Of a stretch of DNA of 64,000 bases, positions 38,913 to 43,919 are shown one piece after another (positions within the stretch are counted from its first letter, which is position 1; every line of letters begins with the position of its first letter). The stretch spans positions 186,001-250,000 of the forward strand of contig NZ_CP012371.1 of the NCBI RefSeq assembly GCF_000619905.2, in the 5' to 3' direction. The notes beneath the pieces are model-generated. The model did not search any database. It was not told where the DNA came from and saw only the letters and a program-made list of their open reading frames with translations. The position numbers and the translations under genes were made by a program. The stretch is from Nitrosospira briensis C-128. GTDB lineage: Bacteria; Pseudomonadota; Gammaproteobacteria; Burkholderiales; Nitrosomonadaceae.

Positions 38913-39128
38913 CCTATTAGATAGCCGATCCCTCTTTAAAGGCCCGCATCCTCCCAAACGGGCCTCTTCTTTATCTCCAATTCAGCTCTGTGAATTACCC
39001 ACATTGACGCTCTGGTGTACCTCAGGACAGTAGCCAATACTGCTGAGTTCTGTGACAATCTCATCGATAATTTGTGATTGTGTAACTTTATAGTTAAGGA
39101 AGTAATTTATAGCGTCAGCGCTTATTAA

Positions 39129-39157
39129 AATTTGAAACTGATTTTCAGTTGCAAATT
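39129..39157. promoter_or_regulatory. Palindromic operator upstream of hicA
   Basis: AATTTGAAACTGA and TCAGTTGCAAATT form a 13-bp inverted repeat (12 matches) around TTT, 24 bases before the hicA start. HicB-type antitoxins with ribbon-helix-helix domains repress their own promoter at such sites. Confidence 0.65.
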
Positions 39158-39180
39158 ATGGAACATTTCACCATAATACT

Positions 39181-39450
39181 TTGTCAAAAAACAGCAAACT
39201 AGTTGCGCGCCTGCGAAGCCGGCCAAAGGACTTTACATGGGAAGAATTGACGTCCCTGTTGAAGCACTTTGCTTATCACGAAAAAGCAGGAAGTGGTTCG
39301 AGCAGAAAGTTCATAAATAGTATTACAGACCATAAGTTAGCATTTCATAAGCCTCATCCTGAAAACGTAGTTAAGCGGTACGTCATTGATGAGGTTATTG
39401 CTACTCTGATTGAAAATGGTCTGATTCCAGAAGAGGAGGATCAACAGTGA
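39181..39450 (+). CDS. hicA: HicA-type toxin of a putative TAC module
   Basis: The 89-residue protein has the HicA dsRBD-like fold pattern: RLRSRPKDFTWEELTSLLKH, AGSGSSRKF and LAFHKPHPENVVKRYVIDEV. HicA cleaves mRNA. The catalytic His of the usual GSHH is replaced by the GSSRKF form seen in the variant HicA branch paired with longer HicBs. The start is TTG 39181 with a weak ribosome site, fitting low toxin output. The stop overlaps the hicB GTG start by 4 bases. The probable operator is at 39129-39157. Confidence 0.8.
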   Translation: MSKNSKLVARLRSRPKDFTWEELTSLLKHFAYHEKAGSGSSRKFINSITDHKLAFHKPHPENVVKRYVIDEVIATLIENGLIPEEEDQQ

Positions 39451-39929
39451 CAAAATTTCGCGAACTGCTGTCTTATAATGAGTTTCAGGGTTCTGCTGAA
39501 ATTAGCGTCGAGGATAACTGTTTATTTGGTCGTATCCTGCATATCAATGATGTAGTTACATATGAAGCAAATTCTCCTAAAGAGCTTGAAAAGTCTTTTC
39601 GGGCCGCTGTGGACGATTATATTGAGTTCTGCAAAGAGCAAGGGCATCAGCCCTGCAAGCCATATAAAGGGGTCTTTAATGTCAGAATTGATCCGACCCT
39701 CCATAAGAAATTAGCCTTTTTGGCAAGAAGGAAGGACGTAAGTCTTAACGAAATAGTAAACGAAGCCCTTTCTGAAAAAGTAGGAGCAGAAAGCAGGGTT
39801 ACAGGGCCAGTCATTCACAATCACAGCCATGTCGTAAACATTATTAGTAATCATGATTCATACGATGTCGAGGAAGGTACTGCATGGTCAGAAAAATCTC
39901 AAAAACCAAATCTCGGGTTCATACAGTAA
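39447..39929 (+). CDS. hicB: HicB-type antitoxin with C-terminal extension
   Basis: The 160-residue antitoxin has a partial RNase H-like domain (EISVEDNCLFGRILHINDVV, SFRAAVDDYIEFCKEQG, residues 18-73) and a ribbon-helix-helix domain (GVFNVRIDPTLHKKLAF, SLNEIVNEALSEKV, 75-112). Related HicBs end at about 115 residues. Here about 45 more follow (SRVTGPVIHNHSHVVNIISN ... AWSEKSQKPNLGFIQ), a place where chaperone-addiction sequences occur in TAC antitoxins. The last 46 bases overlap the SecB-like gene. Confidence 0.85.
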   Translation: MTKFRELLSYNEFQGSAEISVEDNCLFGRILHINDVVTYEANSPKELEKSFRAAVDDYIEFCKEQGHQPCKPYKGVFNVRIDPTLHKKLAFLARRKDVSLNEIVNEALSEKVGAESRVTGPVIHNHSHVVNIISNHDSYDVEEGTAWSEKSQKPNLGFIQ

Positions 39930-40363
39930 AGACACCCGTGTCGTTAGTGCTTCAAACAGTTGAGATAAAAAAATGTAGCATAGAACGCAGGCTTCCGAGA
40001 TTTGCGGCTCCGCGCGGAAAAATCGAATCAGAATTGAACCTCAACGTTTATTTTGCCGAGGGCAATAGGGGAGCGAAAGGTGTAATAGGCCTATTAAGTT
40101 TAGTCCTAAACGGAAAAAGTGTTGTCGGTGATGAGGCTGCTCCCTTCTCAATTTCCTTTGAAATGGAGGGGTTTTACCGCTTAGACGACGCCGATACAGA
40201 ATTGAGTGAGAGCGACTTGACAGAACCATTGATTGCGAGAATTGCCAATGAGCTTTATCCCCTTGCTATGATGAGGTCGTCTGAGTTGCTTAGCATGATC
40301 GGCTATGGAGGAGTTCGATTATCGTATGGGCTAGAAATGGAAAAAGCAATGCAACCCTCGTAA
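39884..40363 (+). CDS. SecB-like chaperone of a putative TAC module
   Basis: The 159-residue protein shows the SecB fold pattern: an N-terminal strand region (VSLVLQTVEIKKCSIERRLP), strands ELNLNVYFAEG and KGVIGLLSLVLNGKS, the FSISFEMEGFYRLDD strand, and the C-terminal helix region NELYPLAMMRSSELLSMIG followed by GGVRLSYGL. The last aligns with NILFPYARECITSMVSRG and FPQLNLAPV in E. coli SecB. GAAGG precedes ATG 39884, inside the hicB 3' end. In TAC systems a dedicated SecB-like chaperone folds and protects the antitoxin. The assignment rests on pattern, not on close identity. Confidence 0.68.
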   Translation: MVRKISKTKSRVHTVKTPVSLVLQTVEIKKCSIERRLPRFAAPRGKIESELNLNVYFAEGNRGAKGVIGLLSLVLNGKSVVGDEAAPFSISFEMEGFYRLDDADTELSESDLTEPLIARIANELYPLAMMRSSELLSMIGYGGVRLSYGLEMEKAMQPS

Positions 40364-40434
40364 ACCCGCTTCGGCGAGTTTATGTTGTCTCACCATAAAA
40401 ATGGCCCGGTAGCGATCTAGCTCCGGGCCATTTA
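40362..40434. terminator. Terminator region after the TAC module (bidirectional)
   Basis: A small hairpin (AAACCCGCTTCGGCGAGTTT) is followed by a strong inverted repeat, AAATGGCCCGG near 40399 and CCGGGCCATTT near 40424, with flanking A and T runs. It can end transcripts from both sides. Confidence 0.7.
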
Positions 40435-40715: not shown

Positions 40716-41111
40716 CTATTCTTCCTTCATAGCCTCCTGCGCCGCCTTGGCGAGAAACCCTGACCTGGTCATATGGTGAGTACTGGCGTATTCATCAATG
40801 TTACGCACTAGGCCCTCTGGTAGCGAAATGTTCAGCCTGACAGCCTTGGAATACTTTTCCACATCCACATCCACGATAGCCCATACGGCATCAGCGAGAT
40901 CTGGATCGGCCTTATGCTCAGCTAACGTGCCTGCTTTAGGTATTTCAATACCTTTCTCCACCATCAACTCGTAATGGGCATCAATGGCCTCTTTCGCCAT
41001 CTCCAAAGCCTCATCCAGGGTATCCCCAACTGAGAGGCAACCGGGAAGATCGGGGATAGTCACGCCGTACTTAATCCCATCGTCCGTATGTAGTGCCAAT
41101 ATAAATTTCAT
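40716..41111 (-). CDS. hicB: HicB-family antitoxin, orphaned
   Basis: The 131-residue protein is a standard HicB: an RNase H-like N-terminal domain (GVTIPDLPGCLSVGDTLDEA, EMAKEAIDAHYELMVEKG) and a C-terminal ribbon-helix-helix (RLNISLPEGLVRNIDEYAS, SGFLAKAAQEA). TGGAGGTAATAA precedes the ATG and is formed by the end of the broken hicA. With the toxin dead, it could act as an immunity or regulatory leftover. Confidence 0.92.
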   Translation of the reverse strand: MKFILALHTDDGIKYGVTIPDLPGCLSVGDTLDEALEMAKEAIDAHYELMVEKGIEIPKAGTLAEHKADPDLADAVWAIVDVDVEKYSKAVRLNISLPEGLVRNIDEYASTHHMTRSGFLAKAAQEAMKEE

Positions 41112-41114
41112 TTA

Positions 41115-41291
41115 TTACCTCCATTTCCATCCAGCTTGCCGGTAGATATTGCGTAGCGTTCCGATTGGTAATGTCTGAATCGGGGTGTTTCACTGTTACC
41201 AATCCCGCTTTTTCAAAATGCGTGAACTGGTGATGCGATCCAGATTCCAGCCTTCGCTTTGCAATTTCTTGATTATGTCTTTGCTCTTCAT
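41115..41291 (-). pseudogene. hicA: hicA toxin gene broken by two frameshifts
   Basis: From ATG 41291 the frame reads MKSKDIIKKLQSEGWNLDRI, the HicA start. It then needs a shift to SGSHHQFTHFEKAGLVTVKH PDSDI (split), and another to IGTLRNIYRQAGWKWR-stop at 41115. The first lesion looks like a slip between two GGATCGCATCAC copies, and the second is an extra A. The catalytic SHHQF survives in the shifted frame. The adjacent hicB is intact. Confidence 0.85.
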
Positions 41292-41448
41292 GTGTGTAGT
41301 TATACACACATTTGATAAGTAAGCAATCTTCTATACCAATCAACCTTCAGTCTGAGCGTGTCTAAAATACCCACACTGATGTACCTTGGTCCAATGGGCG
41401 GCATTTCTGAATTCGGTAAAATCTTCACATCAACTGTGAGGAGCAATA

Positions 41449-42786: not shown

Positions 42787-42909
42787 GATAGCGCGTGGTG
42801 GACGTTCTTTACCGGGATACTCTTCATCGTCTTTCTGCCCTGCTTCCTGCTGTCATGCACGAAGAGAGACACGGTAACGATCAACACGAAAGACGAGGCG
42901 CTGGAATAG
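42757..42909 (+). CDS. Possible two-helix membrane protein, 5' end unclear
   Basis: The frame from ATG 42757 (MLLLCIYVSHDSAWWTFFTG, ILFIVFLPCFLLSCTKRD) looks like a phage-type small membrane protein, and coding-like sequence continues upstream (VHRLIGTLFVFS) without a start. It may be the 3' remnant of a longer gene. Confidence 0.35.
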   Translation: MLLLCIYVSHDSAWWTFFTGILFIVFLPCFLLSCTKRDTVTINTKDEALE

Positions 42910-42992
42910 GCCCAGTCCTTTCCGGAGGATACCGCCTCTCATCGGTTACCAGAATCAAAGACGGGCGTATTGGTTCACAGGATGAAAGGCTG

Positions 42993-43816
42993 ATGATGAT
43001 TCCAGAGAATTGGAAATTGGTGCCGGTTGAGCCTGATGAAAAAATGCTCAAGTTGGGTTGCGCAGCAGGGTTGTCCATCAAGGCGCTTCTGGATGACGCC
43101 CCTTATGCTTGTGATAGAGAAGATCATCCCCATCTAGCTCCGGCAACGCTGCACAACCGCTTGGCCTATCTTAAAGCTGCTGTGCGGTACGCATACAAAA
43201 ATCATGATATCGGCGATCGAGACTACACGGATAAGATGATTATGCCGGGAGTCAATAATAAACGGCACGTCTACATCAAACAGGACGAATTGCACGAGAA
43301 TCTTCTTACGCACTGCGAAGACGATGAGGCCAAGGCTATTTTTACCCTGGCATTCTATACCGGCCTAGGTGGAGATCAGAAATACTCATTCTAAAACCCG
43401 ATCAAATAGTCACAGCAAAGCGGCAGAAGTGGATCAGCCTACCCGACACCAAGAACGGCGCCCCACACATGATACCGATACATCCGAACGCCGCCTGGGC
43501 ACTTGCGTACATACCGTTCAAGTGGAAGAACTCCTACTATTACGCTCGCTGGTGGAAAGCCAGGTCTGCAGCCGGCCTTGATCATCTGAGAATACATGAT
43601 GAGCGTCACTCGTTCGCATCAGCTCTTCTGTCCAATGGAGCATCTTTAGCCGAGGTGGGGAGGGCGCTTAATCACAAATCCGCGCAATCCACAGAGCGAT
43701 ATTCCCACCTGTACCCCGAGCGCGTCAAAGAGCTTGTTTTACGCCTTCCTGTGGCAAAAAAATGCGCGCTAGTCAAATCAGTAGCGCCAAAACCAGGCAG
43801 AAGAAAAGTAATCTAA
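42993..43816 (+). pseudogene. Chimeric, frameshifted tyrosine recombinase (integrase)
   Basis: The first 39 residues (MMIPENWKLVPVEPDEKMLK ...) resemble a phage small protein. Residues after about 43110 are the middle of a tyrosine integrase (LAPATLHNRLAYLKAAVRYA). At about 43375 the frame breaks at the catalytic Arg motif, giving TGLGGDQK where TGLRWGE is expected. From 43390 the other frame continues: ILKPDQIVTAKRQKWISLPD, then the catalytic HDERHSFAS and nucleophile ERYSHLYP. It ends 15 bases from tRNA-Leu, its likely attachment site. N-terminal domain lost, active-site Arg destroyed. Confidence 0.85.
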
Positions 43817-43830
43817 GCTATTGTTTTTAT

Positions 43831-43919
43831 TGGTGCCCGGAGCCGGAATCGAACCGGCATGGGCGATTAAGCCCGAGGGATTTTAAGTCCCTTGTGTCTA
43901 CCAATTTCACCATCCGGGC
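43831..43919 (-). tRNA. tRNA-Leu (TAA)
   Basis: Minus-strand cloverleaf: acceptor GCCCGGA with TCCGGGC, anticodon loop TTAAAAT (TAA), a long variable arm, T-loop TTCGATT, encoded CCA at 43831-43833. Its 3' end faces the integrase remnant, the usual geometry for tRNA-integrated elements. Confidence 0.96.

Follow-up and report, generated by a model that had tools for sequence, protein, structure and literature searches.

A HicAB locus with a tailed antitoxin and a divergent SecB-like third protein in Nitrosospira briensis: a candidate toxin-antitoxin-chaperone module

Introduction

In an ordinary two-component HicAB locus, HicB ends soon after its ribbon-helix-helix part and no third gene follows. 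A trio of overlapping genes in Nitrosospira briensis C-128 departs from this layout on both counts, and the question it raises is whether the third gene encodes a chaperone on which the antitoxin depends. The trio lies within a window of 64,000 nucleotides, the whole stretch of DNA that was analyzed, which corresponds to positions 186001–250000 of the 3.21-Mb single-contig genome. From the evidence set out below, we consider it likely that the trio forms a HicAB-type toxin-antitoxin-chaperone (TAC) module whose antitoxin, through its C-terminal tail, depends on a SecB-like partner.

HicAB-type TAC modules are already known, and the novelty attached to them in the preliminary description of this locus was overrated: a HicAB-SecB set from Methylomonas, tested in 2016, works as a TAC in Escherichia coli and needs its chaperone (PMC5105189). 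According to the same source, HicAB-type trios are the less frequent type of TAC, and the extensions of TAC antitoxins impose the chaperone requirement and can be grafted. The branch to which the window trio belongs is unusual and largely unnamed. Neither the lambdoid and Nitrosospira trios nor the short kind of third protein described here turned up in the listed papers and text passages that were covered on TAC modules, SecB-like proteins and HicAB or HicB. What the present analysis adds, as leads, are trios of many viral contigs and of phage mEp234 with an unnamed third gene, a short partner that does not resemble SecB, and several antitoxin tails of the window group that end like SspB.

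Gene organization of the locus

The coordinates and overlaps of the three genes that had been described previously were confirmed from the open reading frames (ORFs): hicA and hicB overlap by 4 bases, and hicB and the third gene by 46 bases (Table 1). The toxin belongs to one of the families known in TAC modules (HigB, MqsR, HicA), matching phrog_8887 (“toxin”) with an E-value of 1.4e-24 and Pfam family PF07927 with 24.9 bits (E = 2.2e-5), under the family cut-off of 27. Its cognate antitoxin is encoded in the same operon and matches PF05534 (E = 8.3e-20). HicA is an mRNA interferase, and the histidine of its GSH motif has a role in catalysis. Because the letters GSH occur in none of the 105 HicA sequences of this clade, that of the window included, catalysis by window-clade HicA may differ from that of textbook HicA.

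Table 1 Features of the trio and its flanks (window positions)
Feature	Position	Strand	Basis or remark
Inverted repeat, 13-nt arms, 3-nt gap, 92% complementary	39129..39157	.	Candidate HicB operator
Weak sigma-70-like promoter match, TTGCAA, 17 nt, CATAAT	39149..39177	+	Promoter scan
hicA, HicA-family toxin, TTG start, 89 aa	39181..39450	+	ORF call, Pfam, PHROG
hicB, GTG start, 160 aa, HicB-family antitoxin extended by a C-terminal tail	39447..39929	+	ORF call, Pfam, PHROG
HicB tail, residues 113-160, candidate chaperone-addiction region	39783..39926	+	Without counterpart in two-component HicB relatives
Third gene, divergent SecB-like protein, ATG start, 159 aa	39884..40363	+	ORF call, profile comparisons
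HicB C-terminal octapeptide KPNLGFIQ, similar to the end of SspB that docks on ClpX	39903..39926	+	Similarity
Imperfect hairpin directly 3' of third gene	40362..40381	+	Read from sequence

The operator-like palindrome noted in front of the trio is present, and a shorter, 10-nt version is found at the matching place of the sister locus L004; it is a candidate operator to which HicB might bind. The promoter scan produced two sigma-70-like matches in the region versus 3.0 expected in shuffled sequences, which is not significant, and the match given in Table 1 may not be the true promoter because it is very near the TTG start. Of the terminator reported behind the trio, a hairpin after the stop codon does exist, but it is imperfect and was not called by the terminator scanner; at the matching place, the sister locus has a clean terminator-like stem with six T.

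The third protein was detected in 2 of 101 relatives, the window genome and G018; among 125 genomes of the family, it was again present in these two only, along with one degenerate match (E = 0.06, two stops inside). The contigs of G018 and L004 agree in length and gene content, and their trios were counted as one locus, the sister copy. Between window and sister, the third proteins are 74% identical and the HicBs 76%; the dN/dS ratios are 0.088 (hicA), 0.063 (hicB body) and 0.165 (third gene, overlap excluded). Within the 15-codon overlap, the ratio is 0.85 in the hicB frame and 2.9 in the third frame; dS is saturated in the rest of the HicB tail. The trio is kept under purifying selection in two Nitrosospira-group genomes.

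Relationship of the third protein to SecB

Searches with the third protein produced no match in Pfam or NCBIfam and a best PHROG match at chance level (E = 0.41). It does not match the curated SecB family, PF02556, a search of its own genome with this profile at E ≤ 10 returning the canonical SecB alone. There is precedent for a TAC chaperone that escapes the Pfam family: a 2014 paper counts 33 TAC chaperones absent from PF02556 (PMC4257090).

The relationship becomes apparent at the level of profiles. When the window pair (the window protein and L004) was compared with ten canonical SecBs using hhalign, the E-value was 0.013 at a probability of 3.4%, and none of 100 column shuffles, a lenient control, scored as high. 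The profile of this pair had no match in the PDB; it detected four non-self places in 369 genomes (E 0.02–0.08), none in the canonical SecB set, and gave 15 matches in 3048 ORF segments, of which one, at E 10, was SecB. A broader alignment, A12, which excludes canonical SecB, comprises the window protein and seven relatives (L004, L081 and five proteins of the group denoted type B). Its sole match at E ≤ 10 among 177,635 distinct PDB sequences was Haemophilus influenzae SecB (1fx3, E = 0.0024), spanning profile positions 10–120 of 149, and of its 7 non-self places in 258 genomes at E ≤ 0.01, 6 were canonical SecB. In hhalign comparisons with SecB, the eight-protein set gave an E-value of 8.4e-5 (probability 60.5%, 112 columns), and a 26-member set, A7, gave 6.8e-5 over 54 columns. 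The profile of A12 with L091 added matched SecB in the PDB at E = 1.7e-4 and two further SecB entries at 0.04. The smaller alignment A9, which consists of the window protein, L004 and L081 with no type B protein, produced 31 matches including its own three in the 3048 ORF segments at E ≤ 10; 16 of these were canonical SecB, comprising the full set of 6 that A12 had contributed and 10 of the 30 retrieved by means of Pfam SecB. L091 itself, a third protein encoded at the equivalent place of its operon, clears the Pfam SecB cut-off (7.6e-8) and is the one A7 member of 26 that passes PF02556. The C-terminal segment NELYPLAMM..., which had been aligned by inspection with NILFPY... of SecB, is part of the hhalign alignment. 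Given the A12, A9 and hhalign links and the passing of Pfam SecB by L091, the view of the third protein as a divergent SecB homologue has good but indirect support; an unannotated gene is thus placed with the SecB superfamily, and the operon includes, at the profile level, the SecB-family protein expected of a TAC module.

The third proteins found in the survey described below fall into the group of the window protein and type B, the type A group, small sets and a short kind. Type A is a prophage group whose members are 11–16% identical to the window protein; the two type A proteins that were scanned matched phrog_19522, where no function is named. Type A showed no direct link to SecB: there were no canonical SecBs among the 48 matches of the type A profile, A4, in the 3048 ORF segments, 31 of 100 shuffles scored as high against SecB, and no PDB match was found. 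Its connection to the SecB family comes from gene position and from a weak resemblance to type B (hhalign E = 0.0016).

Profile links are evidence of shared ancestry rather than of function, identity between the window protein and the A7 relatives other than L004 is 11–22%, and the prophage type A lacks a detectable direct link to SecB; all this would also be compatible with a third protein that acts as a co-repressor or second antitoxin, binding HicA or operator DNA, with the SecB-like fold as a scaffold. We regard this as unlikely, considering that the TAC chaperones that have been tested, one of them HicAB-paired, are needed for toxin inhibition and, when overexpressed, can replace E. coli SecB (PMC5105189).

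Association of the HicB tail with the third gene

A dependence of HicB on its neighbor predicts that the tail and the third gene occur together, and this was examined in a survey of HicB relatives. Profile searches contributed 8 loci from viral contigs in one search and 80 kept of 104 in another, 30 loci from the class (369 genomes searched, 44 of them matching at E ≤ 1e-10) and 30 from the order (399 genomes searched, 47 of them matching at E ≤ 1e-15), and one plasmid match was added; the remaining places of both genome searches and 24 of the 104 viral loci were left out, as was L159, which duplicates the window locus. With L144 dropped (broken hicB), 148 of the 149 loci had an intact hicB ORF and formed 114 clusters at 90% identity. 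A HicB was classified as tailed if it extended at least 25 residues past window residue 112, and a third ORF had to be at least 85 codons long and to start between -120 and +20 of the hicB stop.

Under these definitions, a third ORF is present beside 50 of the 52 tailed clusters versus 7 of the 62 untailed ones (Fisher p = 8e-22, a value that ignores shared descent), and the outcome that the preliminary description had named as fatal to its own reading, homologues of the third gene never found beside toxin-antitoxin genes, did not occur. L158 and L164 are the two tailed clusters that lack a third ORF; the ORFs beside the untailed clusters L055, L056, L061, L075, L173, L177 and L179 look by eye like chance or unrelated genes. 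In one viral-contig search, 60 of the 79 intact loci were tailed, all 60 with a third ORF, so that HicAB-type trios are common among the viral-contig relatives found by a tailed-HicB profile; 11 of the 59 genome loci were tailed, and a third ORF accompanies 10 of these.

Tailed and untailed HicBs form two length classes. As in TAC antitoxins, the window HicB is extended at its C-terminus relative to two-component homologues, the tail comprising 48 residues. Tails accompanied by a third ORF are 36–69 residues long, contain Trp in 37 of 50 cases and have a C-terminal His in 31 of 50. In a HicB tree with 106 rows and few columns, from which 8 of the 114 clusters had been removed by length and aligned-part filters, a test of the association between tail and third gene found three well-supported independent pairs and had no power. 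The distribution of short versus SecB-like partners among the tailed HicBs on this tree requires at least three changes, and the starred branches force at least two for the short partner kind; exchange of partners among tailed HicBs is suggested.

An ordinary two-component HicAB, with the third gene as a co-transcribed passenger irrelevant to HicB stability, might be invoked given that classical HicAB works without a third gene, that untailed relatives with no third gene listed beside them exist on plasmids, and that the toxin of HicAB2 from a Pseudomonas putida prophage is neutralised by HicB alone (PMC12894663), but the uneven distribution of third ORFs between tailed and untailed clusters, the overlapping frames, the purifying selection on the third gene outside the overlap and the relationship of its product to SecB make this explanation improbable.

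Short partners and the trio of phage mEp234

The short kind of third protein, about 91–118 aa in length, accounts for 9 of the 50 clusters and has its own conserved motif, ELTELLIKHYGLHEG; the short protein of L053 was counted from an early start. The 90-aa third protein of L167 is neither of the short kind nor SecB-like. Searches with the short kind produced no Pfam match and no meaningful PDB match, and comparison with SecB gave no link, 10 of 100 shuffles scoring as high. Of 280 genomes, 5 contained it, at 6 places in all: 3 next to HicB, 2 where the fetched stretch has no HicB and 1 at a contig start; the short kind is thus not tied to HicAB alone. At L221 and L222 (G737), relatives of the short protein are encoded with no HicB in the fetched 3.2 kb, and these proteins may have partners of a different kind. 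Scans in the reverse direction, started from type A, type B and short proteins, returned already known contigs only, which is a weak test because the patterns came from the same proteins.

The lambdoid phage mEp234 carries a hicA-hicB-hypothetical trio (L191, 1745–2875) in its immunity region, between CI and N. It resembles the window trio in that its HicB, 152 aa long, belongs to the same clade and has a tail, and in that the third ORF overlaps hicB, by 1 base; unlike in the window, the third protein is of type A (114 bits with the A4 profile), and the HicB tails that go with type A proteins mostly end in ...H. The third gene is annotated as hypothetical in both annotated records examined.

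It is possible, if doubtful, that tailed HicBs constitute a general “guarded antitoxin” platform in which the tail would be a degradation handle, ending in part of the window group in an SspB-like peptide for docking on ClpX, and the guard hiding it would be either SecB-like or the unrelated short protein. If true, SecB would not be a requirement for chaperone addiction, and a system of this kind would be present in lambdoid phages beside the repressor gene.

Tail ends and a proposed mechanism

Because several HicB tails of the window group end like SspB, ClpXP is suggested as the protease that acts on HicB. In addition to the window protein (Table 1), such ends are KPKLSMLQ (L004), RPQLRVVK (L079), RPLLTVVQ (L086) and R[AV]PLRLVQ (L082, L083); L081, from the same group, is without an SspB-like end. 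The SspB ends are RPQLRVVK, KPRLQIIK and KPRFQVVK in related genomes and KRRFQIVK in the window genome. Among 1495 ORF ends, a background in which SspB and HicB ends were themselves present, the window HicB end is placed within the top 0.9%, and the likeness was spotted after the tails had been viewed. The end of SspB docks on the zinc-binding domain of ClpX and, when fused to GFP, leads to moderate ClpXP-dependent loss (PMC12373786).

The SecB profile links, the HicB tail and its co-occurrence with the third gene support the preliminary assignment of the locus as a HicAB version of a SecB-like TAC. Starting from these observations, along with the gene order and the co-conservation of the trio, we infer the following scheme of toxicity, repression, chaperone binding, proteolysis and triggering. 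HicA would be the toxin, bound by HicB, whose ribbon-helix-helix part would act with the upstream palindrome in repression of the operon. The tail would prevent HicB from being stable alone; the third protein, made from the same message, would bind the tail, allowing HicB to fold and shielding it from proteolysis, probably by ClpXP. If the chaperone were drawn off, whether under export stress or, as happens in CmdTAC, by a phage protein, HicB would be lost and HicA freed.

Comparison with known systems

The tested precedent for a HicAB-type TAC is Mmet-TAC of Methylomonas methanica (Metme_2813/2812 and partner), described as combining HicA, a HicB whose C-terminal extension can be swapped and a SecB-like chaperone, components like those of the window trio (PMC5105189). 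Its chaperone is about 53% identical to that of a Vibrio MqsRA module (PMC5105189), whereas the window protein escapes Pfam SecB. In Mtb-TAC (HigBA1-SecB(TA), Rv1955-1957), the toxin-antitoxin-chaperone operon layout is the same and the chaperone is recruited through a C-terminal antitoxin region that contains Trp (PMC5105189), but the toxin-antitoxin pair is HigBA, not HicAB; the wider family profiles matched its chaperone Rv1957 (5mtw_C) without significance (E = 1.9 and 1.7). The phage-defence system CmdTAC shares a SecB-like third gene with the window trio and differs in its toxin, an ADP-ribosyltransferase in place of HicA. There, new capsid protein displaces the chaperone, with ClpP-dependent loss of the antitoxin (PMC11618068); by analogy, titration of the chaperone should free HicA in the window module. 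PADLOC models, including that of CmdTAC (PD-T4-9), matched the window trio at chance level at best (E = 0.044).

The viral setting of many relatives and the position of the mEp234 trio between CI and N would fit a role against other phages; P. putida prophage HicAB2 had no effect against the phages tested (PMC12894663). Should the guard function be real, it becomes testable whether prophage TAC modules sense rival phages in the manner of CmdTAC, whether the degradation handle is a peptide that docks on ClpX, and whether a non-SecB protein can replace the guard.

Genomic surroundings

The trio is surrounded by two integrase pieces, phage-type regulators, a KilA-N gene and a tRNA-Leu gene. Its earlier placement on a degraded prophage holds insofar as such remnants surround it, but the sister trio sits, by eye, between kup-like and cytochrome-like genes. 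The integrase pieces are separate (42795–43816 and 43831–43919) and adjoin tRNA-Leu(taa), which is likely the attachment site of a decayed element. A second HicB, encoded on the minus strand (40716–41343; PF15919, E = 1.2e-43), adjoins a HicA-like piece that by eye seems incomplete, and is perhaps left over from another HicAB pair. Upstream of the trio, a stretch of about 55 bases (38996–39050) is a dispersed repeat of the genus; a 191-base query had matches in 14 of 31 genomes, with two places in the window genome, and the same repeat also precedes the sister trio. Elsewhere in the genus, L047 (2522–3853, G012) reads as HigB-HigA-SecB-like, HigB and HigA being named by eye; its third protein matches PF02556 at E = 0.0013, under the cut-off, and the PADLOC model PD-T4-9_C at E = 1.7e-5.
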